A stretch of DNA of 64,000 nt from Magnetococcales bacterium (GTDB taxonomy: Bacteria > Pseudomonadota > Magnetococcia > Magnetococcales > JADFWU01), in the NCBI GenBank assembly GCA_015234045.1, contig JADFWU010000013.1, positions 1-64,000 of the forward strand, written 5' to 3'. This document shows, piece after piece, positions 104 to 61,802 of the stretch. Position numbers and translations under genes: made by a program. A model generated the notes under the pieces. The model searched no databases. It was given only the letters and a program-made list of their open reading frames with translations, and had not been told where the DNA came from. Each line of letters starts with the position of its first letter. The stretch's first letter is position 1.

Positions 104-132
104 AAAAAAGGCGGTCAAATAGTATGACCGCC
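104..132 (-). terminator. Rho-independent terminator, minus strand
   Basis: Read on the minus strand, a perfect 8-bp stem (GGCGGTCA/TGACCGCC, 7-nt loop) is followed at once by six T. It could end the purF transcript, whose stop lies about 290 nt upstream on that strand. Confidence 0.7.
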
Positions 133-217
133 TAATGGGAGAGAAGATTCGCCCGTTTTCTATGGATCGCGTCTTGACTCAGGGATGAGCTGCACGGTCA
201 AGCTTGGGAGCAGTACC

Positions 218-346
218 ATGCATACCCACTCGCACTCATACTGGCACAAGCATGTTGACATCCTCCAAACCACTATTTTGGGCGCACTCGCCCTCTGTTT
301 ATGGCTGGGTTTGACACTCTATACCGGAGGTATCCTATCTTTCTAG
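218..346 (+). CDS. Small histidine-rich single-span membrane protein (42 aa)
   Basis: The ATG is preceded by GGGAG at 8-9 nt spacing and the frame closes at TAG. The N-terminus has five His among the first eleven residues (MHTHSHSYWHKH), followed by one hydrophobic segment (about residues 19-40) that looks like a transmembrane helix. This arrangement suggests a metal-contacting membrane miniprotein, but I do not recognise a family. It lies between a minus-strand terminator and the 3' end of purF, transcribed toward purF. The ORF is short enough that chance is a real alternative. Confidence 0.4.
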   Translation: MHTHSHSYWHKHVDILQTTILGALALCLWLGLTLYTGGILSF

Positions 347-419
347 GTGATCTTTCGTCACCAGAGAATGTCTTGCCAAACAAGCTATCAAATTCCTAAA
401 CAGGCTCTATGACAGCGTA

Positions 420-11700: not shown

Positions 11701-11941
11701 GGATGACATTGATAAAGAGGATATTATTGGCATTATTGATACGCTGGAAATGCTTATTGAAGACATGGACCCCGATGCCGAAGAGCAGGTTGCACTGTTG
11801 CATGCCAAATGTACTAGTCGTTCCGAACAGGCGCTTGTTTCTGGTTTGAAAGCGTATGTTGAAAATGCAGAATTTGATGAAGCAGCAGAGGTGCTCGACC
11901 AATTAAGGACGGCACTGAGGACAATGGAGGGGAACTCATGA
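8732..11941 (+). CDS. BvgS/EvgS-type hybrid sensor histidine kinase with HPt domain
   Basis: I start at GTG 8732 because GGAGGA lies 6 nt before it and the product then begins with a clear signal peptide ([16 protein letters not shown] to SA). The frame is open 63 bp further upstream. The 1069-aa order is: periplasmic SBP_bac_3 sensor (about 45-285), membrane helix (about 283-302), HisKA with His336 in MSHEIRTP, HATPase_c ending about 545, a first receiver (Asp627), a second receiver (Asp772 in [10 protein letters not shown]) and an HPt domain with His921 (AHTLKG). This is a full multistep phosphorelay in one chain. In the first receiver the acidic pair reads VVNDKP instead of DD or ED. The stop overlaps the next gene as ATGA, so a GGDEF response regulator is the obvious output partner. 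Confidence 0.93.
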
Positions 11942-12876
11942 GTGAAGGCATGCGAATACTTGTTGTGGATGACGAAAAAATAAACCGTGATTTATTAAAT
12001 GATCTTCTCAGGGATCAGTACAAAATCATGGTTGCCAAGGATGGTTTACAAGCTGTGAAGGCGGCTACCCGAGAACAAAGACGGCCCGATCTGATTTTAC
12101 TGGACATCATGATGCCGGAAATGAATGGCTATGAAGTGTGCCAAAAAATAAAAAATGAAGATGTCTCCAAAGACATTCCCATTATCTTTGTTACGGCAAA
12201 GAATGATGTGGACGATGAAGCGAAAGGATTTGAATTGGGCGCGGTGGACTATATCGCTAAACCGATTTCACCACCCATTGTTCGGGCCAGAGTTAAAACC
12301 CATTTAAAATTGAAACGCAAAACTGATTTGTTGGAAAAAATGGTCTCTCTGGACGGTTTAACTGAAATCCCGAACCGGCGCGCACTTGATGAATTTTTGG
12401 CAAAAGAGTGGCGTCGATCACAAAGATTAAAGTCTCCTCTATCGGTGGTCATGATGGATGTGGACAAATTTAAACCATACAATGATAACTACGGTCACGG
12501 CGCAGGAGATGACTGCTTGAAAAAAGTGGCTAGAGCTTTAATGACTAGCACTAAACGACCTTCAGACTTGGTGGCCCGTTATGGCGGGGAAGAGTTTTGT
12601 GCTGTGTTGCCCAATACAGATCTTGATGGTGCTATAAGCGTTGCGGAAGCATTTAGAGCGACAATTTCCGACTTACAGATTCCTCATGCCTTTTCCGGCA
12701 TTCTTCCGCATGTGACTATCAGCGTTGGGGTCGCCGTCATGGTGCCCAATGAATGGTCAAGCAGCAAGACACTTCAAGAGGCGGCTGATGGTCAACTCTA
12801 TGAAGCCAAAACGAGTGGCCGAAATCAGGTTCGAGGAAAAACACTTCAAGATTGTGGGAATGAGTCGCACACATAG
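11938..12876 (+). CDS. Response regulator with GGDEF diguanylate cyclase domain (PleD/WspR type)
   Basis: The 312-aa protein has an N-terminal receiver (VVDDE, phospho-acceptor Asp in [15 protein letters not shown]) and a C-terminal GGDEF domain with the catalytic RYGGEEF. It should make c-di-GMP from two GTP when phosphorylated, most likely by the HPt domain of the kinase whose gene it overlaps by 4 bp. I see no RxxD inhibitory site immediately before the GGEEF motif. The TAG stop is the first codon of repeat copy B, so the present C-terminus (after NESHT) was set by that insertion. Confidence 0.93.
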
Positions 12877-13030
12877 TCATTTCGATCCAAAATTTGACAA
12901 TAAATCACTACCTGAGTGGAAACCCTGGTGATGTTTTTGCGCCGCTTTTGATATGCGAAGCAGATCATCAAAGCAAACATATCTCCAGGGCTGGAACAGC
13001 TGACTGTTCAAGTTTTAGACAAGACCACTA
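12874..13030 (+). repeat. MITE-like element, copy B
   Basis: 157 bp, differing from copy A at only a few positions. Its first three bases TAG are the stop codon of the GGDEF gene, and its far end lies 10 bp from the stop of the convergent lipoprotein gene. Confidence 0.8.
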
Positions 13031-13040
13031 TGACAAACCA

Positions 13041-13604
13041 TCAAGAATCGCCTTCATCAACCGGATCACCAAGCACTTCCTTTTGAACAGGATGAAAACG
13101 GCTTTGGCGCAATCCTTCCTGCACCTGTTGAAGCAACATCATCTGTTTGCGAAACAGCTTGGCTTTCACGCGACTCTGTTCACGAGCAACACGAATGCGT
13201 TCGCGGAATTCTGTCATGATCTGCCGCCGCATGACACGCAAATCTCCACCCTGTTTCTGAACAGACGGAATCAGCGCTGAGATCGCTTCATGACGCTGGC
13301 GAAGCAGGTCATGATAGTGTACACGTGCTTGATGAAACGCCTGCCGGACCACATCGGTCTGCGCCTCAAAGTGGGCAACCTTACCTCTCCAATACAACTC
13401 AGGCATGGCCTGTCTTTGGATTTTATCCCAAACACCATCCTCTTTGAATATCACCGGATCTAACGTACTCTCATCAACAGGCGATGTGCATGCGGAAAGC
13501 AGAAGTAACAACAAAAGCGGAAAAAAGACGAAAAGATGACGTGCTTCGCTAATAAAAACAACAGAAGCACGCTGTTTTGACAGGCCGACCAGAGCAGTCG
13601 GCAC
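13041..13604 (-). CDS. Putative lipoprotein, coiled-coil rich
   Basis: The frame contains a poly-leucine signal segment ending in LLSAC, a lipobox whose Cys would be lipidated, so the product is probably an outer- or inner-membrane lipoprotein. The mature part (about 149 aa) is helical and very rich in Arg, Gln and Lys, with a MRRQIMTEFRERIRVAREQ stretch. The start is uncertain: GTG 13604 gives a 38-residue signal and clears the upstream gene, but I see no strong ribosome site; the open frame extends to 13730 inside the regulator gene. It follows the FlbD-like gene by 16 bp, so cotranscription and a flagellar or envelope role are plausible. I do not recognise a family. Confidence 0.6.
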   Translation of the reverse strand: MPTALVGLSKQRASVVFISEARHLFVFFPLLLLLLLSACTSPVDESTLDPVIFKEDGVWDKIQRQAMPELYWRGKVAHFEAQTDVVRQAFHQARVHYHDLLRQRHEAISALIPSVQKQGGDLRVMRRQIMTEFRERIRVAREQSRVKAKLFRKQMMLLQQVQEGLRQSRFHPVQKEVLGDPVDEGDS

Positions 13605-13620
13605 ACAGGAGAAATGAAAT

Positions 13621-14988
13621 TCAGGCCGTCGCACTGACACGCGACGCATATTCGTTGAGCTTATTACGCAAAGTACGGATGGATATTCCCAACATCTCAG
13701 CCGCACGGGTACGATTACCATCCACTTCATTGAGGGTATGACGAATCAATATCTCCTCCATCTCCCGAACAGTGGTTCCCAACGGCATTTGAATCTGATC
13801 CACACCTGTGCCACCCGCATCTATCAAAGTAGACGGTGCAGCACCCGCTGGTGCCGGATCAATCATCAAATCTTCTGGGGTGATCGCCTTACTCTCTGCC
13901 ATAAGCAGCGCCCGTTGAACAACATTCTCCAACTCACGGACATTACCAGGCCAAGGTGCGGCTTCCAAAGCGGCCAAGGCCTGATTGGAAAAGGGAATAT
14001 CGTTACGACCAAACTCTTTGGTAAAACGCCTGCGAAAATGCTCGGCCAGTAGAATGACATCTTTTGTACGCACACGCAGCGGTGGCAATTGGACGGGAAA
14101 CACATTCAAACGGTAGAACAGATCTTCCCTGAAATGCCCTTCCTCAGCATAGGATTTCAACTCTCGGTTGGTAGAAGCGATCACCCGGACATCCACCTGA
14201 ACGGGTTTACGACCACCCACAGGATCTACCTCACCTTCCTGAAGCACGCGCAGAAGCTTTGCTTGAAGCTTCAGACTCATTTCAGAGATTTCATCCAGAA
14301 AGATCGTGCCGCCGTTGGCTTGTAGAAATTTACCTTTTCGATCACCGGTCGCACCGGTAAACGCCCCTTTAATGTGACCGAACAATTCTGATTCTAAAAG
14401 ATTTTCTGGCAACGCAGCACAGTTTAGCGCAACAAAGGACTTTTCAGCACGATCAGAGACTTGGTGGATATAGCGCGCAATCAACTCTTTACCGGTTCCA
14501 CTCTCACCCTGAACAAGCACCGTTGCACGAGATTGCGCCACCCGACGAACCTGGGTAAGCAACTTCAACATCTTCGGATCACCGGTGATCAAATGGCGAC
14601 CGCGCCCCAATTCAGGATCAATGGTGGCAGAGACATAGTTGTTCACCAAGCCTTTGACAATTTCCGAGTCAATGGGCAACAGGATATAATCACTGGCACC
14701 TTGGGCAATGGCCTCACTGGCTTCATGAACACTGCCACGCTCCGCAGCGACCAATACCGGCAAGCCTCGGTACAGAAAGGCTAACTCCCGCACAAGATCA
14801 AACGGCTCCGGCATGGTATCCACCGAAATGATCACCAATCCGGGCAATCCGTCCGACAACCTCTTTTTGGCAGCATCAACAGTGTCGATAATGACGACAT
14901 CCTTCCCGGTGGTCTTGAATTGACCGGCCAGGGTGGAAAAAGCCTTATTGGCACTGCCTATGAGTAATATTTCGCTCTGCTGAGTCAT
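13621..14988 (-). CDS. flbD: Sigma-54-dependent transcriptional activator, FlbD-like
   Basis: The 455-aa protein has a divergent N-terminal receiver (about 5-120), a sigma-54 interacting AAA+ domain (Walker A GESGTGKE, the GAFTGA loop, Walker B FLDEI) and a Fis-type helix-turn-helix at the C-terminus (MLGISIRTLRNKLNEY). That last motif is typical of FlbD, the class III/IV flagellar activator-repressor of Alphaproteobacteria. The receiver has an ISVDT segment in place of a clear acidic pocket, consistent with FlbD-type regulators that do not use normal phosphorylation. FliJ and MotE-like genes elsewhere in the window could be targets. Confidence 0.85.
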   Translation of the reverse strand: MTQQSEILLIGSANKAFSTLAGQFKTTGKDVVIIDTVDAAKKRLSDGLPGLVIISVDTMPEPFDLVRELAFLYRGLPVLVAAERGSVHEASEAIAQGASDYILLPIDSEIVKGLVNNYVSATIDPELGRGRHLITGDPKMLKLLTQVRRVAQSRATVLVQGESGTGKELIARYIHQVSDRAEKSFVALNCAALPENLLESELFGHIKGAFTGATGDRKGKFLQANGGTIFLDEISEMSLKLQAKLLRVLQEGEVDPVGGRKPVQVDVRVIASTNRELKSYAEEGHFREDLFYRLNVFPVQLPPLRVRTKDVILLAEHFRRRFTKEFGRNDIPFSNQALAALEAAPWPGNVRELENVVQRALLMAESKAITPEDLMIDPAPAGAAPSTLIDAGGTGVDQIQMPLGTTVREMEEILIRHTLNEVDGNRTRAAEMLGISIRTLRNKLNEYASRVSATA

Positions 14989-24654: not shown

Positions 24655-27330
24655 TCAGGTTATTCTGCCACAGCAGTGCTTGAATTTTCTACCGCTACCA
24701 CAGGTACACGGCGCATTCCGGCCCACTTTCTTTTCGCTTCGCTTGAACGGTGTTCCACTGGGCTCTTCATCATCGCCCTTGGGGTTATTCATGGTCATAC
24801 CGCGTTCACGTGCTTGCGCCCGCTCTGCTTCCGCCGCTTCGACCTGCTCCTGCTGCTGAACCTCAACACGAGACAGAAATTCCACCGTATCGACTTTAAT
24901 ACGGTCCAACAATCCGGCAAACAGGCTGAAAGCCTCTTGTTTATACTCGTTAAGCGGATCTTTCTGGGCATAGCCGCGTAGATGAATACCCTCACGGAGA
25001 TGATCCATGTTCAGAAGATGTTCTTTCCACAGAAAATCCAACATCTGCAACATGATGCTCTTTTCAAGATAGCGCATCAACGGCGGTGTCAAACGCTCTT
25101 CACGGGATTTCAGATAGGCATCAATAGCGGCCAAAGAACGCTCTTTCACCACCAGAGCCGTCACACCCTCTTCCTCTTTCCATTCATCAGCGGGAAGAGA
25201 AATAGCGAACTGTTTCATAATGGAGTCAACGAATTCCTTGGTCTGCCACTCTTCAGGATAAGCCTCTTCAGGAATATATTGCTCCAGAATGTCGGTGAAC
25301 AACTCATTACGACACTCGGCCAGATATTCAGAGATATCTTCACTCTCCATCAACTGGCGGCGCTGCTCATAAATGGCCATGCGCTGATCGTTCATCACAT
25401 CATCGAACTTCAGAATATTCTTACGAATATCGAAGTTGCGGCCTTCGACCTTTTTCTGTGCTGATTCAATGGCTTTATTGATCCAAGGATGGACAATGGC
25501 CTCACCCTCTTCCAAGCCTAATTTCTGCAACATGCCATCCATGCGATCAGATCCGAAGATCCGCATCAGATCATCTTGCAAAGAGAGGAAGAAACGACTG
25601 GAACCCGGATCACCCTGACGACCAGCACGACCACGTAACTGATTGTCAATGCGTCGGGATTCATGCCGCTCTGTGCCGATGATGTGCAATCCGCCAGCGG
25701 CAAGAACGGCTCTGCGCTCGGCGTTTGTCTCAGCTCGGATAGCCGCGATACGTTGTTGTTTTTCTGCCTCATCCAGACCTTCAGGCACTTCCGCTTTGAT
25801 ACGCATCTCGACATTACCGCCAAGCTGAATATCCGTACCACGACCCGCCATATTGGTGGCGATGGTTACCGCGTCTTTACGACCCGCTTGTGAGACAATT
25901 TCCGCTTCCATTTCGTGGAATTTAGCATTGAGCACTTTATGCGGTATTTTTAATTTTTTCAGAGCTTTGGCCAGCTCTTCAGACTTTTCAATGGAGACGG
26001 TACCAACCAGCGTTGGTTGACCGCGTTTGTAGCAATCCTGCACATCGGTCAGGATGGCGTTCACCTTCTCGGCATGGGTGCGGTACACCTCGTCATCATT
26101 ATCCACACGCACCAGATCCTGGTTGGATGGGATGATGATCACTTCCAGATCATAGATGGATTCAAATTCCGTTGCCTCGGTATCCGCCGTGCCGGTCATG
26201 CCAGACAGAGTGTCATACATGCGGAACAGATTCTGGAATGTGATGGATGCCAGGGTTTGGGATTCGTTCTGAATCACCACCTGTTCTTTGGCTTCCAACG
26301 CTTGGTGCAGACCATCGGAGTAGCGCCGACCCGGCATCATACGTCCGGTGAACTCATCAATAATGACCACTTCGCCCTCTTTGACGATGTAATCCTTATC
26401 ATGTTCAAACAGCGCATGCGCTTTCAGGGCCTGGTTGAGATGATGGACTTTCTCAACATTGCGGACATCGTACAGATCGCCATCTTCGAGCAATCCGCGT
26501 TCACGCAACAGTTTTTCGCCATGCTCATTACCCTCTTCGGTAAGCACCACAGTACGGGCTTTTTCATCCACAGTGTAGTGCACATCCCGCTCTAACAACG
26601 GAATGATGGCATTGATTGTATAATATTTATCGGTATTGTCTTCAGTAGGACCGGAGATAATCAACGGCGTTCTGGCTTCATCAATCAAAATGGAGTCCAC
26701 CTCATCGACGATGGCGTAGTGCAACGGCCTTTGCACCATCTCTTCCAAGGTAAACTTCATGTTGTCGCGCAGGAAATCGAAACCAAATTCGTTATTGGTG
26801 CCGTACGTGATATCCGCCTGATAGGCTGCCTGGCGCTGCACATCATCCTGACCATGCACGATCACACCAACCGTCAAACCGAGAAATTGATAGATCTGCC
26901 CCATCCATTCGGAGTCACGTTTGGCCAGATAGTCATTGACGGTCACCAAATGGGCACCCTTGCCCTCCAGGGCATTGAGATAAAGCGGCAACGTTGCCAC
27001 CAGGGTTTTACCCTCACCGGTGCCCATCTCCGTAATCTTACCGTGATGCAACACCATACCTCCGACAAGCTGGACATCAAAATGTCGCATACCGGTCACC
27101 CGGCGACTGGCTTCCCGCACCGTGGCAAACGCCTCGGGCAGCAGATCGTCCAGGGTTTCGCCATCGGCCAGACGCTGACGGAAAAGCACCGTCTGACCGC
27201 GCAAGGCGGCATCGTCCAGTGTCTTCAAGCCCTCTTCCAGATCATTGATCTTCTGGACGATGGGATTGAGGCGTTTGAGGTATCGTGTATTACGGGTTCC
27301 GAAAAATTTCCGGGCCAGTGCTGAAAACAT
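24655..27330 (-). CDS. secA: Preprotein translocase ATPase SecA
   Basis: SecA drives post-translational export through SecYEG. The start is ATG 27330 ([21 protein letters not shown]) with AAGGA upstream; the frame extends to 27519 without homology. The 891-aa chain has NBD1 with Walker A GTGEGKT, the [13 protein letters not shown] helicase motif, the preprotein cross-linking domain, NBD2 with [10 protein letters not shown], and a C-terminal zinc motif [13 protein letters not shown] that contacts SecB. Here the last ligand pair is CC, where E. coli has CH. Confidence 0.97.
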
Positions 27331-27551
27331 GTCGCTTTGATTCCTTCGGAGCAGGCCTGAACGGACATCCCAGCCTGATATTCCATGCGGGACAGAGCCT
27401 ATTCCATCCTTAATTTCACAAAATAAAAAACCAGAAATCTGAAACAAATCGAGTGCACACCTGAGGTGGGTACGCACCGATGGCGAAGCAAGCCTACCTT
27501 TTGTCGCCCAAGCAATCAAAGGCTAACCGTACTTTAAGTCACTTTTTCACC

Positions 27552-27573
27552 AAAAAAAGCCCCTCAACCGGGC
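27552..27573 (-). terminator. Terminator of the KGGVGR operon
   Basis: On the minus strand GCCC-loop-GGGC is followed by seven T, overlapping the stop codon of the gene it ends. The GC stem is only 4 bp but is extended by A-T pairs. Confidence 0.55.
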
Positions 27574-30500
27574 ATTTCAAACGGCGGCTCCTCTTTATTC
27601 CAAAACAGAGGCAAATCTTTGGGATCACCACAGCCATAGCTTTTGCCTTCTATGAAGGGCTTGTAGCGGTCCAGCATTTTCTGGGGTTTGGGGACATCTT
27701 TGAAGGTGTCCCGTTTTTCCTGAGGTAGCGTGCAGAGTGCGGTGACCAATTGACGAAGAGGCTCTCTCAAATCAGAGCGGCAGCCTGCCAGGAGATAACC
27801 ATCATTTATAATATCCAAACGCTCTTCGTGATTGGATACTCTATTAACTATCGACTGAAAATCAGTGGCCTCAGTTTGACCTGAAGAGTTGGATATCTTA
27901 ATTAACCAATCAATAAACTGCACAGCAACATCTTTGGTTTTTCTTCTTAGCCATGTTTCAGACAACTCAACTATTTCATCAAATTGTTTTTCAAGAGCTA
28001 ATGTCAATATAGTTTGATTAACAAACTCAGAAACCCCTTTCCCTTGCTGCATGATTAAAAGAGACTTCTCAAAATGCTCTCTTGCCAAATCTGTTTCATT
28101 GAGATGTTGATATAATGAGCCTAAATTTCTATGTATATAAGCCCTACCTGCTTCATCCTCAGAAACAGTTAACCCCTTCTTAAAAACAGACTTGGCTATG
28201 CTGAAATAGCCATTACGATAATAAGATAATAATCCGAGACCATTCCATGCATGCGCAAACTTTGGATCCAGATCTATCGCTTTTCGATACGATGACTCCG
28301 AGTCTTCATAACGATCCATATAATTTTGATACAAATTGCCCAACTCTTGCCATGGATGCGCTAATTTTGGATCCAGTTCTATCGCTTTTCGGTATGATGA
28401 CTCCGAGTCTTCATAACGCTCCATATGATTTTGATACAAATTACCCAATCCATGCCATGGAGGCGCATACTTTGGATCCAGTTCTATCGCTTTTCGGTAC
28501 GATGACTCCGATTCTTCATAACGCTCCATATGATATTGATACAAATTGCCCAATTCATTCCATGAAATCGCAACCTTTGGCTCCAGTTCTATCGCTTTTC
28601 GATACGATGACTCCGAGTCTTCATAACGCCCCATGTTATATTGATACAAATTGCCTAATTCATACCATGAACCTGCAAACTTTGAATCCAGATCTATCGC
28701 TTTTCGATACGATGACTCTGAGTCTTCATAACGCCCCATGTTATATTGATACAAATTGCCCAATCCATACCATGGATCTGCAAACTTTGAATCCCGTTCT
28801 ATTGCTTTATTATAATACAACTCAGCGTTTTTATAATTCTCCATACAATTATGATATAAATCTCCCAAAGCGGCACATACCCGAGCATCTTCTGGATCAA
28901 TATCAGCAGCTTTTTTATAACATCTCTCAGCTTCAGGACATTCACCCTGTTCACCAAAAGAATCCCCAACTCGTCCCCAAATACTTAAAACATCTTCTTC
29001 CACCGATTCAACACCTTGATAAATCAACTCTCTCAGTTCAGTATTCTTTCCAGCTTCCTGCCAAAGCTCATACCAATATTGCCCCCACTGCTCCCAAGCT
29101 GGGAACGGATGATTGCCTTTTTCGAAACCTTTTAACAGAGCAGGAACTATTGAATTATCTTCATTGAGAACAATGTGTTCTACCCACTCTTTTTGATGCT
29201 TAAAATAGTGGGAAATCAAATTAGGAATAAATTCACCATCCAGCATAGAAAGCTTTTGTCGTTCCTCATTAAACACCCCAACCAACTCATTGATTTGAGC
29301 AGCACTCAACGTGTCAAAATCGTCCAACAATTGCTTCTTATTTTCCCAAGACATGGACGTAAAGCCGGATAACCAGTCCAAAAATTCATCATGGCTGACC
29401 TTAACGCCCTCCGGCATTGGTTTAGAGCCAATGAGTTCTTCTCTGACAGAATCAATTGTGCGCCCTTCTTCTGGCATCAGGTCCAAAGGCCAATACCAGT
29501 GAGGCAAACGCAACAGAGGAATAAAATCCTCGCTCCGATGTTTTTTTGGCAATGAATCATCGAGAAGAAAGTGTTCTCTTTGCTGATTATCTGATTTTTT
29601 ACTTTTCTGACTATCTGGTTTTCTATCCGCAGAGATACCGGTAGTGCGGGAGATTTTTTCTTGGATTTCCCGCTCCTGTTTTTCCAGAAGCTGCCCATCA
29701 ATGTCTTCGGCTATATTGATTACAGATTGTACATAGGGGTGCTCACGATTTTTCAAAGCCAGAGGTAGATCTGAAACAGCGAGATGTGGCGTATAGGGCA
29801 GCGTATATATTACAGGAACGACCTCATCCTGTTCACCTTCAGAAACATGCAGGCGTTCATCTTTCAACAACTGTTTACCCTGATTCAATGCCTGCATGGC
29901 AAAAGGATCATCATGGATATGGGCTGGAATCGGTGAGAACACCACTTTCAGGTCTTTTGCATAACACCCCAAAGGCACGCGCTCTTTTCGAAGTGCTTTA
30001 AGGGTTAAACTAAGACCTGTTAAATTCTGCTCATTAAGTCCAGATATCAAAACGATTTCATCAGCTAAATAGCCCAGCGTCATATTCAACAGTTCTGGAA
30101 ATCCTGTACGGCAATCAATCAGAACATAGTCGAATTTTTTCTTACAATCAGGGAGGACAAACTGGGAAAAATCTTCTCTCAATTTGAATGAAAAGCCCCT
30201 TAACGCCTTGTCAAAAGGATTTTTCGACGCGCCGTTCGAACTGGGAATAGTTTGAATTTCACCATCAATGATAGTTGGCGACTGAAAACGTACCTTACCT
30301 GCGCCCATGGCCATAATTCGACCATTCCGCCCCCAAACCATCCCCTTTGGAGGAAACATTTCCCGAAACAGTCTACCGGCTGGATAGTAGCCAAAATGAT
30401 CGGGATTCTCTTTATGTTTTTCGTAGAAAATTGTCAGCAGATCACTAAATCCTCGACCTTCAAGAGAAGGATCACTCCAGGGTGAATTTTTCAGCATGGG

Positions 30501-30644
30501 AGAATAGGTCAGCCCAGGAGCCGCCAGATCCATATCCACCAAGCCAATCACTTTACCCAAAGAAGCCCAGTAGGTAGCCAGATTCATCATCAAAGAGGTT
30601 CTGCCAACACCACCTTTAAATGAGAAGAACGCTATAATTTTCAT
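27564..30644 (-). CDS. KGGVGR-type P-loop ATPase fused to TPR repeats (copy 1)
   Basis: The 1026-aa protein begins with a MinD/ParA-like domain: MKIIAFFSFKGGVGRTSLM is a deviant Walker A with the signature Lys kept but GK replaced by GR, and DMDLAAPGL and VLIDCRTGFPELL follow. This matches the KGGVGR-variant ATPases found in multidomain prokaryotic conflict and signalling proteins. A linker (about 320-560) contains a conserved WYWPLDLMP segment. From about 575 to 830 lie TPRs, five of them nearly identical 35-residue units (ELGNLYQYNMGRYEDSESSY), then a C-terminal region ending in LDRYKPF, GCGDP and a final MPG. Its ATG overlaps the upstream stop as ATGA. Base composition is AT-rich compared with neighbours. 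It is paralogous over full length to the gene at 32668. The cellular role is unknown. Confidence 0.85.
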   Translation of the reverse strand: MKIIAFFSFKGGVGRTSLMMNLATYWASLGKVIGLVDMDLAAPGLTYSPMLKNSPWSDPSLEGRGFSDLLTIFYEKHKENPDHFGYYPAGRLFREMFPPKGMVWGRNGRIMAMGAGKVRFQSPTIIDGEIQTIPSSNGASKNPFDKALRGFSFKLREDFSQFVLPDCKKKFDYVLIDCRTGFPELLNMTLGYLADEIVLISGLNEQNLTGLSLTLKALRKERVPLGCYAKDLKVVFSPIPAHIHDDPFAMQALNQGKQLLKDERLHVSEGEQDEVVPVIYTLPYTPHLAVSDLPLALKNREHPYVQSVINIAEDIDGQLLEKQEREIQEKISRTTGISADRKPDSQKSKKSDNQQREHFLLDDSLPKKHRSEDFIPLLRLPHWYWPLDLMPEEGRTIDSVREELIGSKPMPEGVKVSHDEFLDWLSGFTSMSWENKKQLLDDFDTLSAAQINELVGVFNEERQKLSMLDGEFIPNLISHYFKHQKEWVEHIVLNEDNSIVPALLKGFEKGNHPFPAWEQWGQYWYELWQEAGKNTELRELIYQGVESVEEDVLSIWGRVGDSFGEQGECPEAERCYKKAADIDPEDARVCAALGDLYHNCMENYKNAELYYNKAIERDSKFADPWYGLGNLYQYNMGRYEDSESSYRKAIDLDSKFAGSWYELGNLYQYNMGRYEDSESSYRKAIELEPKVAISWNELGNLYQYHMERYEESESSYRKAIELDPKYAPPWHGLGNLYQNHMERYEDSESSYRKAIELDPKLAHPWQELGNLYQNYMDRYEDSESSYRKAIDLDPKFAHAWNGLGLLSYYRNGYFSIAKSVFKKGLTVSEDEAGRAYIHRNLGSLYQHLNETDLAREHFEKSLLIMQQGKGVSEFVNQTILTLALEKQFDEIVELSETWLRRKTKDVAVQFIDWLIKISNSSGQTEATDFQSIVNRVSNHEERLDIINDGYLLAGCRSDLREPLRQLVTALCTLPQEKRDTFKDVPKPQKMLDRYKPFIEGKSYGCGDPKDLPLFWNKEEPPFEMPG

Positions 30645-31630
30645 GCCACATACTCTTCACTACTAAAAGACTCTCCTGGCATTGTATTAATAGCTTCAAT
30701 TACACATTCATCTAAACCTCCATCAACCAAATCGAATGTAACGCTCTTTGATTCTGAAAGTGGTATTTCAGAATCTTCTAATTCACCCTCTCTCTCTGAC
30801 GGTTCAAGAATTTTATCTTCATCTTTCTTTGCCAGCACAGAAACTCCACTACTACGAATCATTTCAACCTGATCCGACCAAATTTTATTCACCCGCCTTG
30901 CCGCAGCCTCATATTTTTCATAGGAACAGTTCTCAAAAAATGGCTGCACTTTCCCTTCATAAATAATCGGTAAAACTTCCAACGCTTTCGGCATCAGGCG
31001 AGTAACCGCTGCACGACGAACCATAAAACTCCAAAGCAGATCCTCATGCTGACTATCAACACATAGCTCGCCTATATCAGTCCACACCTCTATTTGTTTC
31101 AATGACTCAATAGACAGTTCACCTTGATTATCAATCATTCCCTGCAAAATCTTCTGTGGAATCTTTATATCAAGACGATCTAACAATTTATTTCCAGCAG
31201 CTCTTCTCATCTGCTTGATGTCATCATGCGTGGCAAACATCAATTTCTTTGTCCCACACATCCACTTTCCTGACAGCGGCGGCAAGAATTGTGATCGAGA
31301 TTTTGCTTCGGTGTTTTCAACAAACCTGGGAAAGGAACCGGCCAACGCTTCATACTCTTTTAAAAATTCAGAATCCATATAAAAAGCACGGATATTTCTT
31401 CCTACGAACTTTTTTTCAACAACCGGACAGAGCAACCCTGTTTCTGAATACTCTTCAAAATCAGATCGGCTGATAATTTTTGTAATATCTTCCAGAATAT
31501 CATCCAACAACCCCAATTTATCCGGCTCTTGTGTGCTATGTACAATCACAGCCTCCTCACCACAGCCATCTGCGAGACTTCTGTTGACAGCTTCAACAAT
31601 TACTTTTTGATTGTCTGTCGTCTCAGTCAT
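30641..31630 (-). CDS. Unrecognised protein in KGGVGR/TPR operon (329 aa)
   Basis: I do not recognise a family. The start is ATG 31630, which overlaps the preceding stop as ATGA; the frame is open 30 bp further. The product has no signal peptide or membrane helix, is mixed alpha/beta by eye, and ends in an acidic Ser/Glu-rich tail (after about residue 260). A few Cys occur (SGKWMCGTKKLMF). It is AT-rich like the two genes around it and is coupled on both sides, so it is very likely a partner, regulator or effector of the downstream ATPase-TPR protein. Confidence 0.75.
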   Translation of the reverse strand: MTETTDNQKVIVEAVNRSLADGCGEEAVIVHSTQEPDKLGLLDDILEDITKIISRSDFEEYSETGLLCPVVEKKFVGRNIRAFYMDSEFLKEYEALAGSFPRFVENTEAKSRSQFLPPLSGKWMCGTKKLMFATHDDIKQMRRAAGNKLLDRLDIKIPQKILQGMIDNQGELSIESLKQIEVWTDIGELCVDSQHEDLLWSFMVRRAAVTRLMPKALEVLPIIYEGKVQPFFENCSYEKYEAAARRVNKIWSDQVEMIRSSGVSVLAKKDEDKILEPSEREGELEDSEIPLSESKSVTFDLVDGGLDECVIEAINTMPGESFSSEEYVA

Positions 31631-32514
31631 CTCATACCGCCCTGCTTTTTCTCTATCCAATTTTTCATAAAATCACGCACGCCTTGTTCCGGGTCAGCGC
31701 CATAATCCAGAAAACCATCTGGCAATTCGGGAGGTTCCGACACCCCTTCCTCACCTCTGACATAGGCTTCTTTCCATAGAGCCAACGCGCCAAGAACCTT
31801 TCGATAAGTTTCCTTTGGCATTGCCCAGCCTAACAATGCATCAGTAACAGAAATAGGTTTTGGTCCGGTTAATCGCACTTCCCAAGTCCAAGAGGCCCAG
31901 TCATCAGACAACTTGTCCACATAGCGAACGGGAAGATCACAATGATCCCAACAAGCATCTTTCAATTCTGGGCAACTTGCAGGTTTGTCACCATCCATAT
32001 AATTTTGCCACTCAGAACCATAGAAGGACCACAAATATTCATGGAAGCCAGCACGCCACTGATCCAATTCCATCCGTGTTTCCTGTAAAAATTTTACAGC
32101 CTTAAACCGCTCTTTATCCTCAGATTCAACAGGAAACGGCTTGCAATTTCCTGTGAACACACCACCGCTGTCACACGGCGTTGCACAACCATCCTTTTCG
32201 CGCTCTATCTCCGGATGATAACACAGCATAATTAGCTCACCATAAACCTCATCTCGACCAATTGCTCTTTTTTCAGCCTTATTTCGGTCAGGCCGCCCAG
32301 CTTTTCCAGCATACATGTAAACAGCAGGCATCCAACCGCATTTTTCCTGCACGTCCCAACAACGACTGCCTTTTTTGGACACATGATAGAAAAGAGAGTC
32401 CTGGTTTTTATCTTTAAAGGCATCAAAAATCCAATCAACAGGTGTCGTATGCACCAACGGCATCCAAGATGCGGGTGATTTACCTTCCCGAAACACTTGT
32501 TCAATCATGGCCAT
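31627..32514 (-). CDS. Unrecognised cysteine- and tryptophan-rich protein in KGGVGR/TPR operon (295 aa)
   Basis: The start is ATG 32514 because TGGAG sits 6-7 nt upstream; the frame is open to 32577. The product is soluble, with many Trp and Cys (SRCWDVQEKCGWMP; CATPCDSGG; CPELKDACWDHCD), arrangements that could bind metal or form a compact cytosolic domain. It ends in DFMKNWIEKKQGG. No family or catalytic motif is evident to me. It heads the three-gene AT-rich operon and couples to the next gene by ATGA. Confidence 0.75.
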   Translation of the reverse strand: MAMIEQVFREGKSPASWMPLVHTTPVDWIFDAFKDKNQDSLFYHVSKKGSRCWDVQEKCGWMPAVYMYAGKAGRPDRNKAEKRAIGRDEVYGELIMLCYHPEIEREKDGCATPCDSGGVFTGNCKPFPVESEDKERFKAVKFLQETRMELDQWRAGFHEYLWSFYGSEWQNYMDGDKPASCPELKDACWDHCDLPVRYVDKLSDDWASWTWEVRLTGPKPISVTDALLGWAMPKETYRKVLGALALWKEAYVRGEEGVSEPPELPDGFLDYGADPEQGVRDFMKNWIEKKQGGMR

Positions 32515-32626
32515 ATACAACTCCAGTAAGTACGCATATCCACAACTCAAAAAACATAATCGCTTACAGTTGTTCAACGCAATCCTGAAGATACTATATG
32601 ATATTTATTCTTTGTTAAAGATTTGA

Positions 32627-32655
32627 CCGGGCTTCAAGGAGGGAAGCCCGGTTTT
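32627..32655. terminator. Hairpin between the two KGGVGR units
   Basis: CCGGGCTTC and GAAGCCCGG form a perfect 9-bp stem with a 7-nt loop. The T-run is better on the plus strand (TTTTGTT), but the minus strand also has a T-rich tail, so it probably ends the transcript of the gene at 32668 and separates it from the following operon. Confidence 0.65.
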
Positions 32656-32667
32656 GTTGAGAAGACC

Positions 32668-35600
32668 TCAGCCAGGCATATCCAACACCGGTTCGTCCTC
32701 TTTGAAGAACCGGTTCATATCATTCGGATCGCCACAACCAATGCTTAATCGTGCAACAAATGGTTTGTAGCGGTCCAAAATCTCTTTTGGAAGAGCTACA
32801 TCTTTAAAGGTTTCCAGCTTTTCAGCAGGCAATCCATAGAGCTTATTGGCAAAGCGGCGTAATGGTAGGCGCAGATCTGCCCGGAAGCCGGATATCCGAT
32901 AACAAGCCGTGAGTATTTCGAACCGTGTGTAGTGGCTGGAGAGCGTATCTATGACCGATTGCGTGTTCATGGCATCCAGTGGTGTTTTTTGGAGCCAGGC
33001 GGCAAAATGTAGATTAGCGTCTTTTGGGAATTTTATTAGCCAATCATTCAGAATATCCGCTGATTGATCGCCCTTTTTGTTCAGGCAGGCTTCCAAAATG
33101 ATCTGAATATGGCAATGATGGCGGTATAGATCGGGCCTGAGACCGGATAAGGATTGATCCAAGTGCGCGATGGCCATACCGTTTTCATCGGCATGCTGGT
33201 AAAGAAAACCAAGATCCCGTTGCAGGGTTGCATTGATATTTTCATCATCAGCCAGTGACAAACCTTTTTCAATCAATTTCTTGGCGGCGCTGTAATGGCC
33301 TCGGTGCATCCAATAAAGCAAGCCCATACCATGCCAGGGATAGGCATATCTTGGATCAAGCTCAATGGACTTACGATAAGCCGCTTCCGCTTCATCAAGA
33401 CGACCCAGATGATCTTGCAACAGATTGCCCAACCCATTCCACGCAGAGGCATAACTCGGCTTTAAAGTCAGTGCATGTTGATAGGCTGATTCCGACTCGG
33501 CATAGCGTGCGAAGTGATTTTTCAGCAGGTTGCCCAGCTTGTTCCAGGGATCAACCTCTGAGGCATCAAGCTCAATCGATTTCCGATAAGCGGCTTCCGC
33601 CTCTTCCGGTCTACCCAATTTATATTGATACAGATTGCCCAGACCATGCCAAGGCGCGGCCAGAGAGCCATCCGCTTCGATAATCTTGATGTACGCCTCT
33701 TCCGAAGCGTCTGGCCGGTGCAGCTTGTACTGATACAAATTGCCCAACGTATACCAGGGATGGGCATAATTGGGATCAAGCTCAATAGCCTTTTTGAATA
33801 CAGCCTCTGAATCTTCTGGACGGTCCAGTTTATTTTGATACAACTTGCCCAGACCATGCCACGCATCGGCGTATTTTGGATCAAGTTCCAACGCCTGTTG
33901 ATAGGCCGCTTCCGAAGCCTCAGGCCTGTCCAGTACATGTTGATAAAGATTGGCCAACCCTTGGTGATAATTGGGCAGACGCGGTTCCAACTCAATGGCG
34001 GTCTGATAAGCGGCTTCAGACTCCTCTGCGCGGTCGAGTTTATAGTGCAACAGCTTGGCTAGTCCGTACCACGGATACGCCAGCGAACCATCCAAGGCAA
34101 TGGCCTTACGGTACGCCTTTTCAGACTCTTCATAGCGATTGAGATGGTTTTTGAGCAGATTACCCAGACCATGCCAAGTATCGGCGTTGTTGGGATCACT
34201 CTCCAACGCTTTCCGATAGGCCGACTCAGCCTGTTCTGGACGATTGAGCGTATATTGATACAGATTACCAAGCCCTTGCCAGGCATTGGCCAGCGACTCA
34301 TCCAGCGCCAGCGCCTGACGGTACACTTTTTCCGCATCGGAGGGACGGTCAAGGCGTTCATGCAACAGCCGACCAAAGTTTGACCACGCTTCAGGATCAT
34401 TCCGATCCTGGTCAATACTCTTGATAAATGCACCCGCCGCTTGATCATACTCTCCAGAAGCGGCAAGACGGATGCCTAAACGATTCCAAGCTGAAGCATC
34501 TTCGGTATCCATTTTAAACGCCTCCTGCATAGCCTGTTCATAACGTGGGGGGTCATTGCGAAACAGTTCTGCCAACGCAACCCAAAAAATCGGTAGATCT
34601 TCCCAGCTTGGGAATGATCCTTTGCGTTGAGCCGCCTGATCCATAAGCGGCTTGATGATCTTACCGGGCTGATTCAGAATCACGCGATCTGCCCAGGCAA
34701 TCTGATGGTGCAGATAGAACACCATGCGTGAGGTCGGGTCTGAGCCATCCGGCACAGCGTGTCTTTGCCGTTCCCTATCCAATATATCAATCAGCGCGTT
34801 GAGTTGCGACTGTGACAGATCCGGCATAAGAGCTAAAATACGTTTTTTCTCACCCACTGAAAAAGCCACCGAACCGGCCAGCAGGTCCAAAATTCCATCT
34901 TTATCCGCAATCACACCCTGCGGCAACGTGCCAATCAATCCCGCGCGAACCTCTGCGATACGATCCTTTTGACCTGTTGCCAAGAGCGGCCAGTACCAAC
35001 GCGGCAGAATCAATTGAAATTCCGTAGATTCAGCCCTACTATCAGCGCTATCCAGATATTTCTTGGACGATTTCACCAGCCCTGCCACAGCCGCATCGTC
35101 ACCAGTGAAGGACACCCCAACACACCGACCCATCGCATACTGGGTCTTTTGGATTGTGTGTTGCACGGTTGCCCCATCAATCTGTTCAGCAATCGCCATC
35201 ACGGTCCGCACATAGGGCAGATCCTGACGATTCAACAGCAACGGCAGATCCGATCCGGCAAGCCGAGCATCATAGGGCATAACGAAACACGCTGGCGTGG
35301 TTTCGACTTGAATATCTTCAGGCGGCACCAAAGCATACGCAGAAGACAAACGCACCCCTTTTTCCAACGCCTGCATGGCCAGCGGACAGATATTGATCTG
35401 ACTCTGCAACGGCGACAACGCCACCACCACGTCACGAGCATACGCACCAAACGGAATCGCCTCTTCACGCAACGTTTGGAGCGTTTCAGCAAAAACGGAT
35501 AAATTTTGACTGGTCAAACCGGACATCAACACGATCTGATCCGCCATATTACCCAGCATCAGAGCCAGTAGATCAGGGTATCCCGTCCGAAAATCCACCA

Positions 35601-36081
35601 ACACATAATCAAACGCCCGCCCACTGTCTGGCAAAACGTAATTTTTTACTCTCTTTCTAAAATCACGATAAAAAGCCTGCACTTGTTCACTATCAAGCTC
35701 TTCAGCAAGTGGTAAACAGATCTCACCACTACGCACGGAACCCGCACCCAAGGCCCACACCTGACCAGTGCGCCCCCACTTCTGTCCGTTGGGTAGCGTC
35801 ACTTCTCTGAACAGGGCGGAGAGCGGCAACGCTTCAGCCTCTTCAGACGTATCAATCGCATTAAAATAGGCGATTAAATCACTTACGCCACACCCTTCAA
35901 ATGCCGGATCAGGCCACGCAAGATCGTTGATAAGCGGCAAACCGGTCAAACCCGGTGCTGCCAGATCCATATCAACCAAACCAACCACGTTGCCAAGTGA
36001 GGCCCAATAGGCGGCCAACTCAGTGATCAGAGCAGTGCGACCAACACCGGCCTGACACGAAAAGAATGCAATGATTTTCAT
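32668..36081 (-). CDS. KGGVGR-type P-loop ATPase-like protein fused to TPR repeats (copy 2, degenerate P-loop)
   Basis: A full-length paralogue of the protein at 27564, about 1137 aa. The N-terminal domain keeps DMDLAAPGLTGLPL and VLVDFRTGYPDLL, but the P-loop reads SCQAGVGRTAL, so the signature Lys and one Gly of KGGVGR are lost; nucleotide hydrolysis may be impaired. A linker with PRWYWPL is followed by about ten TPR units of 35 residues (GLGNLYQYKLGRPEEAEAAY) that are far more diverged from one another than in copy 1. The tail again has TFKDV, LDRYKPF, GCGDP and a terminal MPG. I start at the ATG matching copy 1; a TTG at 36108 preceded by GGAAAAG is an alternative. Composition is normal for the window. 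Confidence 0.85.
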   Translation of the reverse strand: MKIIAFFSCQAGVGRTALITELAAYWASLGNVVGLVDMDLAAPGLTGLPLINDLAWPDPAFEGCGVSDLIAYFNAIDTSEEAEALPLSALFREVTLPNGQKWGRTGQVWALGAGSVRSGEICLPLAEELDSEQVQAFYRDFRKRVKNYVLPDSGRAFDYVLVDFRTGYPDLLALMLGNMADQIVLMSGLTSQNLSVFAETLQTLREEAIPFGAYARDVVVALSPLQSQINICPLAMQALEKGVRLSSAYALVPPEDIQVETTPACFVMPYDARLAGSDLPLLLNRQDLPYVRTVMAIAEQIDGATVQHTIQKTQYAMGRCVGVSFTGDDAAVAGLVKSSKKYLDSADSRAESTEFQLILPRWYWPLLATGQKDRIAEVRAGLIGTLPQGVIADKDGILDLLAGSVAFSVGEKKRILALMPDLSQSQLNALIDILDRERQRHAVPDGSDPTSRMVFYLHHQIAWADRVILNQPGKIIKPLMDQAAQRKGSFPSWEDLPIFWVALAELFRNDPPRYEQAMQEAFKMDTEDASAWNRLGIRLAASGEYDQAAGAFIKSIDQDRNDPEAWSNFGRLLHERLDRPSDAEKVYRQALALDESLANAWQGLGNLYQYTLNRPEQAESAYRKALESDPNNADTWHGLGNLLKNHLNRYEESEKAYRKAIALDGSLAYPWYGLAKLLHYKLDRAEESEAAYQTAIELEPRLPNYHQGLANLYQHVLDRPEASEAAYQQALELDPKYADAWHGLGKLYQNKLDRPEDSEAVFKKAIELDPNYAHPWYTLGNLYQYKLHRPDASEEAYIKIIEADGSLAAPWHGLGNLYQYKLGRPEEAEAAYRKSIELDASEVDPWNKLGNLLKNHFARYAESESAYQHALTLKPSYASAWNGLGNLLQDHLGRLDEAEAAYRKSIELDPRYAYPWHGMGLLYWMHRGHYSAAKKLIEKGLSLADDENINATLQRDLGFLYQHADENGMAIAHLDQSLSGLRPDLYRHHCHIQIILEACLNKKGDQSADILNDWLIKFPKDANLHFAAWLQKTPLDAMNTQSVIDTLSSHYTRFEILTACYRISGFRADLRLPLRRFANKLYGLPAEKLETFKDVALPKEILDRYKPFVARLSIGCGDPNDMNRFFKEDEPVLDMPG

Positions 36082-36473
36082 GATGCTAATAGTGTCAGTT
36101 TTACTCAATCTTTTCCAGGTATTCTAGGGCTGTACCAAACAAAAAGTGCTTTCATGACACATTTGTTCCGAAGCCCGCAAAACCTAATTCCAGCATAGCA
36201 CAAACCCGGTTGGCTGATTCCCTGTTTCACGCTACATATTGCCGCTGACCAATCACCTGCGCTATTATCATGCACTGGCGCGTGGGGATGCGCTCTCCCG
36301 ATCAACAAAAAGAACCTTGAATCTTCCCGACGGGAACACCTGAAAAGGGTGGGCCAAGCGCTTTTTTTTGCCCTCTTTTTCTCGTTCAGAACCTTTCCCC
36401 GCACCCTTTGTTAGTCTGTTCAATTGAAAACAGATCGTTATCCTCGCCTGACCATCTAAATAAAAAAACAGTC
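36082..36473. other. Intergenic region upstream of dnaA
   Basis: Divergent region between the ATPase-TPR gene and dnaA. I searched by eye for DnaA boxes (TTATCCACA) and found none convincing. It has a T8 run and an AT-rich stretch just before dnaA, likely holding the dnaA promoter. No credible gene. Confidence 0.5.
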
Positions 36474-37862
36474 ATGGAAATTTGGGACAAAGTACTGGAT
36501 GCATTAAAAGAGCAGGTTTCCGAGCAAGTATTCAGTGCCTGGATATCTCCACTACGCCCGGCTGGTCCCATTCGGGGCAGTGAGTTGGAAATTCTGGTGG
36601 GCAATGACTTTTCCCTTGATTGGGTGAAAAGTCGCTATGACTCGCTACTGACCGCTTCATTCTCTGCCGAAGCGGGTCGCGCCATCACCATTGTCTACAC
36701 AATAGACACCAACGCCCCAATCAAGCCCGCCCAAGAAGATAATGCAAAATCCGCAGAGCAAAAAGACACCCCCGAAACACCAAAACAAGCCGCGAAACCA
36801 AAACAAGCCGATCCTTCTGATGAATCCACCACCCTGCCCCGTGAAAGCGGGTTAGACCCGCGCTACACCTTTGACTCATTCGTGGTCGGTGGCTGTAATC
36901 AGTTTGTCCATGCCGCTTCCGAACGCGTAGCGGAAGCCCCGGCAACCGCTTACAACCCGCTGTTTATCTACGGCGGTGTCGGTCTGGGTAAAACGCATTT
37001 GATGCATGCTATCGGACATAAAGTGCTTGAAGATCGCCCCGATGCGCGGGTGCTCTATATCTCCTCGGAAAAATTCATGACCGAGTTGATCAACTCATTG
37101 CGCTTTAAACGGGTATTCAATTTTAAAGAGGAATTCCGGTCAGTCGATCTACTATTGATTGATGATATTCAGTTCATCGCTGGAAAGAAGGCCACTCAGG
37201 AAGAGTTTTTTCACACCTTCAACGCCCTGTTCGAAGCCAATAAGCAGATCATCATGACCTCAGATCGGTTTCCCAATGAGATCGACAATCTGGAAGAGCG
37301 CCTGCGCTCTCGCTTCGGCTGGGGCTTGGTGGCGGATATTCAACCGCCTGAGCTGGAAACCCGTGTGGCAATTCTGAAGAAAAAAGCCAGCATGGAAGGC
37401 TTGGAACTGCAAGATGATGTGGCTTTTTTCCTCGCCAACGCCATTCAAACCAACGTCCGGGAACTGGAAGGCGCTTTGGTGCGTGTTTCAGCCTTCTCGT
37501 CACTCACCAGACAGCCGGTGACCATGGAGTTGGTCAAAGAGTCGTTGCGGGATATCGTCAAAGGCCAGGAGCGCCAGATTACCATTGAAGGCATTCAGAA
37601 AACCGTCTGCGCCTTCTATAAAATCCGCCCACAGGATATGCGTTCAAACAAACGCTCACGCCTGTTTGCCCATCCGCGACAGATTGCCATGTACCTCTGC
37701 AAACAACTGACCCGCCACTCCTACCCGGAAGTAGGTCATCAGTTTGGTGGACGCGACCACACCACGGTTCTTTATGCCGTCCGCAGCATTGATAAAAAAA
37801 TGAAAAGCGATGGCAATTTGGCCGAAGAGGTTGAGACACTCAAGAACATGATTACCAAGTAA
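36474..37862 (+). CDS. dnaA: Chromosomal replication initiator DnaA
   Basis: DnaA binds oriC and melts the duplex. I start at ATG 36474 (MEIWDKVLDALKEQVS), the usual N-terminus; the frame is open 66 bp further. The 462-aa protein has domain I, a variable linker rich in Lys, Gln and Pro (about 85-125), the AAA+ domain with Walker A GGVGLGKTHL and Walker B LLIDDIQF, and the DNA-binding domain IV with the signature GGRDHTTVLYAV. No dnaN follows; instead the gene converges on a broken restriction gene whose end overlaps it by 11 bp. Confidence 0.97.
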   Translation: MEIWDKVLDALKEQVSEQVFSAWISPLRPAGPIRGSELEILVGNDFSLDWVKSRYDSLLTASFSAEAGRAITIVYTIDTNAPIKPAQEDNAKSAEQKDTPETPKQAAKPKQADPSDESTTLPRESGLDPRYTFDSFVVGGCNQFVHAASERVAEAPATAYNPLFIYGGVGLGKTHLMHAIGHKVLEDRPDARVLYISSEKFMTELINSLRFKRVFNFKEEFRSVDLLLIDDIQFIAGKKATQEEFFHTFNALFEANKQIIMTSDRFPNEIDNLEERLRSRFGWGLVADIQPPELETRVAILKKKASMEGLELQDDVAFFLANAIQTNVRELEGALVRVSAFSSLTRQPVTMELVKESLRDIVKGQERQITIEGIQKTVCAFYKIRPQDMRSNKRSRLFAHPRQIAMYLCKQLTRHSYPEVGHQFGGRDHTTVLYAVRSIDKKMKSDGNLAEEVETLKNMITK

Positions 37863-38352
37863 AGCCATAGAAAGGACTTAAATTGACGGGAAGCAACCGC
37901 CGTTTACGCTCCTTAGCATACTTAGCTGAACGCGTTGTTTGTTCAGCAAGATAAGCGACAAGTTGAGCGTCCCAGGAAGGCGAACCAAAGTTTTTAAGGA
38001 GACTAAGAGTCTCTGGTTCAATTTGATACACAGCTTTGGGACTATTAACTGGGCGATCTGGCTCATCTGGATTATATAAGGCAATACCAGCATCTACAAA
38101 CTGATGCATTGTTTGCCGACGAAAAGTCTCACGAGTGTTGGGTGCATACGCCTTTCCATAGTGATCTCGACTGAAATCCATCATGGGCGTAATGCCTTTC
38201 AGTGGACTTTCGGCTTGTATCCAGCTTTTCTCAGGAGAAAGATCCAACAGTGCAAGAAGACAAAGTGCTGAACGCTCATTCTGCTGAGCACGAGGCATTT
38301 CAAGCGCATCAAGAATAACGATAGCTTCTGTAATGTTGCGATGAAGACTCAT
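37852..38352 (-). pseudogene. Truncated BsuBI/PstI-type restriction endonuclease
   Basis: The 166 aa match the N-terminal domain of BsuBI/PstI endonucleases (ALEMPRAQQNERSALCLLAL; GITPMMDF; YAPNTRETFRRQTMHQF; PDRPVNSPKAVYQIEPE). Members of the family are around 320 aa; the C-terminal nuclease half is missing and the frame ends in residues encoded by the antisense of the dnaA 3' end. It should be inactive. Its ATG overlaps the methylase remnant stop by 4 bp, the normal operon order of a type II R-M system of CTGCAG-type specificity. Confidence 0.85.
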
Positions 38353-39165
38353 GCAATGCTTTCAATTTTTTGATCAATATTTTGTTGAGAAAAAGGACTG
38401 TCAACTTTTTTAACCCACTGCCCAATCTTGATAAGAGTATCACGATTTGGATACATCATGCGACGAAGGTCTGTCACATTGACTTGAGTATGACCACTGA
38501 AGCAACGAAAGTGCCGATCAACTGCTGATGAATTTCCTAAACGACCGATAATAAGGACCATTACAAAAACTCCGCGGGATAATGGCCACGAGTTGCCCTA
38601 GTGGTTCCAATAATGCAAGCGATAGAGATAGAAATGCAGAGTATAAATTTACTGTTTCAATACCCACTGATCTCAGAATTTTTCGATAGTGCGAAGTATT
38701 CTTAATCTTATGATAGGGCGGATTCAGGATTGCGTGAGTAAAACGCTGGCCACTTCCATCTCGCAGATTTAAAACAGCATCATCAACAAAATCAGTCGTG
38801 ATAATTCGCGATCTCAGAGAGCTCTGTCCCCTCAACAAATGCAGGGTTTGCCTTAAAGAGTCGATGAGGTTCTCATCAATTTCATAAGCGGTAAGATCAA
38901 TACGGCTGTTTTCTCCGTGACGACGGAGAAAAGCGTGTAATAGCGCTCCTCTTCCAGCCCCAGCATCAAGAAGACGGATTGTTTCCCCTCTTCTAGGAAG
39001 AAACAACAAACTCATAAAATCAGCAATGGTTGTTGGCGTTACAAATTGGCAGAGAGAAGATTTTCTTTCAGAACATGCAGGCGGCACAAGTGCAAAAGGC
39101 TCCTCAAAATCCCGAAGAGAATCAAGCCGATGCGTTTGTAAAAAACTGCTTTTTTCAAGACTCAT
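38349..39165 (-). pseudogene. Broken N6-adenine DNA methyltransferase of the BsuBI/PstI system
   Basis: The first frame (39165 to 38518) holds the SAM motif LLDAGAGRGALLHAF and catalytic NPPY (HAILNPPYHKIKNTSHYRK), then ends after IIPRSFCNGPYYRSFRKF. The second frame (to 38349) carries the C-terminal end of the same family (FSGHTQVNVTDLRRMMYP). The two are joined at about 38520 with loss of the central target-recognition part and a frame change, so it is an internal deletion of roughly 200 residues. Cognate partner of the truncated endonuclease; not functional. Confidence 0.8.
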
Positions 39166-39256
39166 TGAAAGACCGCCGCTACTAAGCAAGATAAAAGATC
39201 AGGACCATGTAAAAAGCATAGCTAATGGGTATCAAACAAGCTTCTATCCTGCACAA

Positions 39257-58032: not shown

Positions 58033-58206
58033 CGAGGAATCCCACATTCCAAACAGTTTATTCGTGTCTTTGTTTTTTTTACTGTCAAGACACTGAATAA
58101 TGATGTACCATGTTGAAAGTTAATGACTTTCACTGCCACAGTGTGCACTTCAAACCACGGCCAAAACAACGGCCTTTTTCGGGTTTCTGAGCAACATCAA
58201 GCACTC

Positions 58207-61802
<3,596 letters not shown>

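Follow-up and report, generated by a model that had tools for sequence, protein, structure and literature searches.

The stretch analysed here (the window) comprises 64,000 nucleotides of a Magnetococcales bacterium (contig JADFWU010000013.1, positions 1 to 64,000), and it carries, between secA (24655-27519) and dnaA (36408-37862, plus strand), four genes that lie all on the minus strand and are transcribed in the order ATP2, ORFA, ORFB, ATP1 (Table 1). As the initial annotation had described, two long paralogs, each with a MinD/ParA-like domain joined to tetratricopeptide repeats (TPR), bracket two genes of no recognised family; both paralogs, ATP1 and ATP2, end in a conserved tail with a GDP.D motif. 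Regarding transcription, ATGA overlaps join ORFA to ORFB and ORFB to ATP1, while a hairpin, the probable terminator of ATP2, and a promoter-like site lie between ATP2 and ORFA; thus, the coupled unit is the three-gene operon ORFA-ORFB-ATP1, and ATP2 is a separate transcription unit, so that the ATGA coupling first reported holds for the two junctions of this triad and not for ATP2. The promoter-like site is a match to the consensus, and 19 such sites were found in the region against 13.3 expected.

Table 1. Positions of the genes and other features of the four-gene locus in the window
Feature	Position	Strand	Description
ATP1	27564..30644	-	1026 aa; MinD/ParA-like domain at residues 1-~340, linker, TPR array, conserved C-terminal tail
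ATP1 P-loop, KGGVGRT	30597..30617	-	Arg replaces the classical Walker A Lys; direct reading
ATP1 TPR units, 105 bp (35 aa)	28241..28808		5.4 copies, 88% identical (DNA)
ORFB	30641..31630	-	329 aa; likely start ATG 31630; predicted adaptor
ORFA	31627..32514	-	295 aa; likely start ATG 32514; candidate ADP-ribosyltransferase-fold effector
Promoter-like hexamers TTAACA-16-TAGTAT, 5' of ORFA	32591..32618	-	consensus match only
10-bp GC-rich hairpin, 3' of ATP2	32626..32652	-	-18.3 kcal/mol, z -4.4; weak T run
ATP2	32668..36108	-	ATP1 paralog; at least 10 TPR units; likely start ATG 36081
ATP2 degenerate P-loop, QAGVGRT	36034..36054	-	direct reading

As for the two paralogs, ATP1 matched NF047398 (AAA_KGGVGR) with 99.7-100.6 bits, above the cut-off of 90 bits, and its TPRs were detected by Pfam; the array of 35-amino-acid units is a recent expansion. 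ATP2 scored 80.1-84.6 bits, under the cut-off, and its P-loop reads QAGVGR, so that both basic positions of KGGVGK are lost; KGGVGR is kept in the six other family rows (type Ia ATPases) aligned with it. Hence the KGGVGR label given at first to both proteins suits ATP1 and not ATP2, and neither has the deviant Walker A motif of MinD/ParA ATPases proper (KGGxGK[ST]), ATP1 having Arg for Lys. In the tree, ATP1 and ATP2 are sisters (support 98/95), with a branch of 1.28 for ATP2, about three times longer than the 0.39 of ATP1. Because of its P-loop, its score under the cut-off and its sister position on a long branch, ATP2 is regarded, from its sequence, as a local duplicate, probably without the usual nucleotide binding; the reading of the four genes as a two-copy unit was rejected on the same tree, the two-copy layout being particular to this genome. 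The missing basic residues and the long branch could also denote a decaying gene and not a functional partner, a somewhat unlikely option, given that the frame is intact over >1,100 codons and that the TPRs are regular and the tail conserved. ATP2 possibly serves as a regulator or an alternative receptor.

Regarding its distribution, ORFA is present in 15 of 48 Magnetococcales genomes, a patchy occurrence, and in a sample of 398 Pseudomonadota genomes no genome outside the order matched ORFA, ORFB or the type II partner (see below). ORFA was not found in the plasmids, phages or viral contigs searched; a scan of genome contigs returned nothing with the single ORFA sequence and only the Magnetococcales loci already known with a six-row alignment, and the ATPase domain had one weak plasmid match, in Massilia. 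KGGVGR domains occur in 35/48 genomes of the order, with zero to six copies per genome; being multi-copy and patchy, the ATPase genes are not ordinary single-copy core genes, in agreement with what the initial annotation expected of such a cluster.

ORFA and ORFB are followed by a KGGVGR-TPR ATPase in all 13 assessable loci of subtypes Ia and Ib (the window, L015-L019, L071-L075, L078 and L080), the third gene being readable in each, although the L078 contig includes just the first 26 codons of it; ORFB and the ATPase usually overlap or lie within ~20 bp, and in one locus they are 100 bp apart. This gene order is far above chance, because it recurs in 13/13 loci, nearly all with unrelated flanks. 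An all-gene comparison around the triads showed that nearly all locus pairs have the triad alone in common, so that it sits as a unit at different genomic places; the exceptions are the syntenic L072 and L073, one large neighbour common to L016 and L018, and small fragments. In the pairs L071-L080 and L075-L080, the ATPases are 72-74% identical and ORFA and ORFB only 39-43%, which indicates faster evolution in the partners than in the ATPase. Some copies have decayed: in L074, ORFB is split and the ATPase match of that genome has an in-frame stop, and L081, L173 and L174 contain remnants. Two triads, L075 and L019, are also flanked by large proteins that are weakly related to each other (26% identity; 10728-14891 and 3-3683, respectively).

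Further KGGVGR ATPases in the order likewise occupy the third position, with different partner pairs. In the type II operons (L085, L086, L087, L089-L093 and L095), gene 1 has a nitrilase-fold region, with Glu-Lys-Cys conserved in 9/9, and weakly resembles the CARF- and RT-nitrilase defence models of PADLOC; gene 2 encodes a winged-helix-like (MarR-like) protein, and it adjoins a KGGVGR match in all 13 genomes that carry it. These three-gene operons are specific to the order within the genome sample, and the tree places the ATPases that go with their pairs in two very different clades, L085/L086 versus the rest.

In subtype Ic (four loci in three genomes: L076, L077, L079 and L172), ORFA and/or ORFB lie directly beside large CHAT, STAND/NB-ARC-like, TPR proteins, which in L077 and L079 also carry TIR; as each of these genomes has only about 3-5 CHAT genes, such adjacency is very unlikely to occur by chance. 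The idea that the pair is always accompanied by the ATPase was thus discarded, since subtype Ic has CHAT or TIR-CHAT-TPR neighbours instead; what stands of the expected association of the two orphans with an ATPase-TPR gene is that an NTPase-TPR or NLR-like gene adjoins them in nearly every case, and that neither was found outside the order in the genomes sampled.

Further partner sets accompany KGGVGR-TPR ATPases in type III (L088, L098, L099, L100) and type IV (L083, L084); in the scanned copies (L098 and L083), Pfam recognised none of these partners. Gene 2 of types III and IV may be distantly related (hhalign E 0.0012, probability 20%), and hhalign was not significant between the partner families otherwise. 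Other KGGVGR operons include a ~480-amino-acid P-loop protein and a small 145-amino-acid gene (L125, L126, L128) or two short upstream genes (L139, L144).

On the basis of the observed gene order, conservation, lineage restriction, partner exchange, association with NLR-like genes and decay, ORFA-ORFB-ATP1 is predicted, with reasonable though not high confidence, to be a three-component conflict system of the immune or abortive-infection type; there is precedent for degenerate or inactive MinD/ParA-like domains in systems of this kind (Kaur et al. 2020, PMC7159879). Conflict systems are in general recognised by patchy presence and by exchangeable effector genes in a constant context, and both were found here; indeed, the defence or signalling role thought plausible at the outset fits the patchy presence, the decay, the different sites, the faster partners, the exchangeable pairs and the TIR-CHAT/STAND-TPR neighbours. 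Some observations weigh against it: the window holds no clear defence island, and the cluster, flanked by secA and dnaA with a truncated BsuBI/PstI system close by, is not in a classical one; no PADLOC model covers ORFA or ORFB; two of the four subtype Ic loci (L077, L079) are nearly copies of each other in a single genome; and the Ic genes, though adjacent to the NLR-like genes, are often convergent or divergent with them and not co-transcribed.

A MinD/ParA-like module with adaptors particular to the lineage, serving intracellular positioning or signalling (e.g., at poles, flagella or magnetosomes), appears improbable. It would agree with the MinD/ParA-type domain, the TPRs, the Magnetococcales restriction and weak matches, at the level of the TPRs, to MamA-like proteins and to TPR proteins of pili and motility, but these matches are generic and below cut-off, Arg occupies the place of the classical Walker A lysine, and the system is missing from two thirds of the order, varies in genomic place and has decayed copies; moreover, its pairs exchange and some stand beside TIR-CHAT-NLR proteins. 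The polar-organising role that had also been suggested found no support. Slightly more remote is a non-immune stress-signalling operon or a regulatory one like those of ribosomally synthesised and post-translationally modified peptides (RiPP), similar to the actinobacterial FxSxx-type systems: in peptide-processing systems, AP-ATPase-TPR is accompanied by a related inactive MinD/ParA domain (PMC7159879), and the winged-helix partner of type II hints at a transcriptional output; however, the scan of the four genes showed neither a peptidase nor a radical SAM or small precursor gene, and the FxSxx-type systems are themselves viewed as conflict-related.

Returning to the conflict system, its putative effector, ORFA, had no Pfam match in 16 family members scanned singly, and neither ORFA nor ORFB of the window matched NCBIfam or PADLOC; the ORFA families have in common the motifs Y.[YF]AG, P.D[ST]GG and W.WE[VI]R. 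The AlphaFold2 model of ORFA, built from a six-sequence alignment, had a predicted local distance difference test (pLDDT) of 52 and a predicted template modelling score (pTM) of 0.46; when compared with the PDB, ADP-ribosyltransferase (ART) folds made up 13 of the 16 Foldseek matches and 21/21 listed VIA rows, namely DarT (best), KptA/Tpt1, the DUF952-type CC0527, CteC and PltA-type folds. In DarT, the essential Glu and the Tyr of the ARTD-class [H-Y-E] motif have been described (PMC11543638), and the DarTs of the order show Glu and Tyr in QAEFL and VPFYFCPRSPM contexts. As for ORFA, the equivalence with [H-Y-E], proposed by hand, points to H22, Y66 and E212 (295-amino-acid numbering) as candidate site residues; wherever they are present, the Tyr in Y.[YF]AG and the Glu in W.WE[VI]R do not vary, and an Asp is also invariant.

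An ART fold for ORFA is tentatively favoured from the model, although this assignment has its own counterweights: the pLDDT is low and just one of the five AlphaFold2 models stands out; no fold match is significant (best Foldseek E 0.29; Z ≤6.3, with a stated noise level of 7-8); the first position of the candidate [H-Y-E] varies (H/R/T); and the hhalign profile comparison with DarT is not significant, being no better than that with controls. Since the fold matches are non-significant singly and DarT has no profile support, ORFA is tentatively called a candidate ART and not a DarT. Viral structures gave no usable match; a PDB sequence search with the two orphans returned chance-level matches only, and a weak paracaspase stretch, at the YAG motif, was not credited.

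The low model confidence, the non-significant profile match and the variable H position leave some room for a conflict system in which ORFA is a sensor or scaffold and not an ART, and in which the toxic step is carried out or recruited by the KGGVGR-TPR protein, perhaps jointly with NLR-like proteins; Kaur et al. indeed put MinD/ParA-like domains on the effector side (PMC7159879). This arrangement is nevertheless unlikely, given that the structure matches are almost exclusively ART folds, that Y and E are invariant, and that type II has a nitrilase with an intact catalytic triad at the same gene position.

ORFB is more divergent than ORFA, and no Pfam match was found in 15 family members scanned singly. 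Its AlphaFold2 model, built from a 6-row alignment, had a pLDDT of 71 and consists of a small N-terminal beta domain, a C-terminal helical/TPR-like region and a disordered tail; fold searches returned generic helical or TPR-like matches only. From its position and fold, ORFB is predicted to be an adaptor.

Taking the conflict system and the ART fold of ORFA together, a combination that is held with a little less than even confidence, we infer the role of each protein, the ART activity, the trigger and the outcome as follows, in line with the general scheme of NTP-dependent conflict systems whose effectors are exchangeable. ATP1, the KGGVGR-TPR protein, would be an NTP-dependent sensor or scaffold, whose TPR array would recognise an invader or damage cue and whose MinD-like domain would change state or assemble upon nucleotide; ORFB, with its beta and helical domains, would couple ATP1 to ORFA, and ORFA, the effector, most likely of ART fold, would modify a cellular target or consume NAD+, arresting the cell. 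Elsewhere, the putative effector/adaptor pair is exchanged for the nitrilase-fold enzyme and the winged-helix protein, or lies by a TIR-CHAT/STAND-TPR protein. More speculative, and rather doubtful at present, is an immune platform specific to this lineage of magnetotactic bacteria: its constant sensor would be a MinD-type KGGVGR-TPR protein, in the place that a STAND NTPase takes in NLRs, and the effector/adaptor pairs, among them a new ART family and a nitrilase-fold enzyme, would be swapped, the ART pair being shared with TIR-CHAT-NLR proteins.

Several known systems have traits in common with this locus. With the NF047398 proteins, ATP1 shares an N-terminus that scores above the curated cut-off and the same deviant P-loop; however, that model covers the domain only, does not describe the partners and the TPR fusion of the operon, and ATP2 is without its motif. 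The MoxR-vWA/VMAP ternary systems (PMC7159879) likewise have an NTP-dependent core, superstructure repeats such as TPR, exchangeable effectors and degenerate MinD/ParA-like domains, but here the part of constant component falls to the MinD-like-TPR protein, and no MoxR, vWA or VMAP is present in the four genes. NLR-like TIR/CHAT-STAND-TPR proteins, the neighbours of ORFA-ORFB in subtype Ic, have the same NTPase plus TPR architecture, whereas the NTPase of the window is MinD-like and not STAND. The CARF-nitrilase and RT-nitrilase systems of PADLOC resemble the type II relatives in the nitrilase-fold gene 1; the score is weak, CARF and reverse transcriptase are lacking, and the nitrilase is absent from the window.

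DarT (PF14487), of the DarTG toxin-antitoxin and anti-phage systems, gave the best structural matches to the ORFA model and has the [H-Y-E] Tyr and Glu for which ORFA offers candidates; in contrast, ORFA has no significant sequence similarity to it and its H position is variable, and beside ORFA there is neither a macrodomain nor a NADAR antitoxin, ORFB having no Pfam domain. Canonical DarT-macrodomain pairs occur in five other genomes of the order (L145-L149 and L151), and most of them adjoin a type I restriction specificity-like gene.

Both KGGVGR domains and conflict systems of the NTPase-TPR kind are already known; what seems to be undescribed in searchable papers is this set of partners, its restriction to one lineage and the exchange involving NLR-like proteins. 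The open literature searched held no paper with the word KGGVGR and nothing combining these parts. If the prediction is true, modular immunity in bacteria would gain a MinD-like NTPase as a constant core, beside the STAND, MoxR and GTPase cores, and the locus would supply two unannotated protein families, one of which is possibly a new nucleotide-using bacterial toxin. The partner exchange offers a direct route to studying the matching of sensor and effector, and at least one named strain of the order, Ca. Magnetaquicoccus inordinatus UR-1, carries the triad.

Finally, regarding the surroundings of the locus, the truncated type II restriction system beside dnaA (37852-39189), apparently decayed, consists of the N-terminal domain only of a BsuBI/PstI endonuclease (166 amino acids) and a short Eco57I-like methylase. 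dnaA itself lies ~20 kb from a recF-like/gyrB pair (58123-61802), and the usual dnaA-dnaN-recF-gyrB cluster seems to be split in the window.

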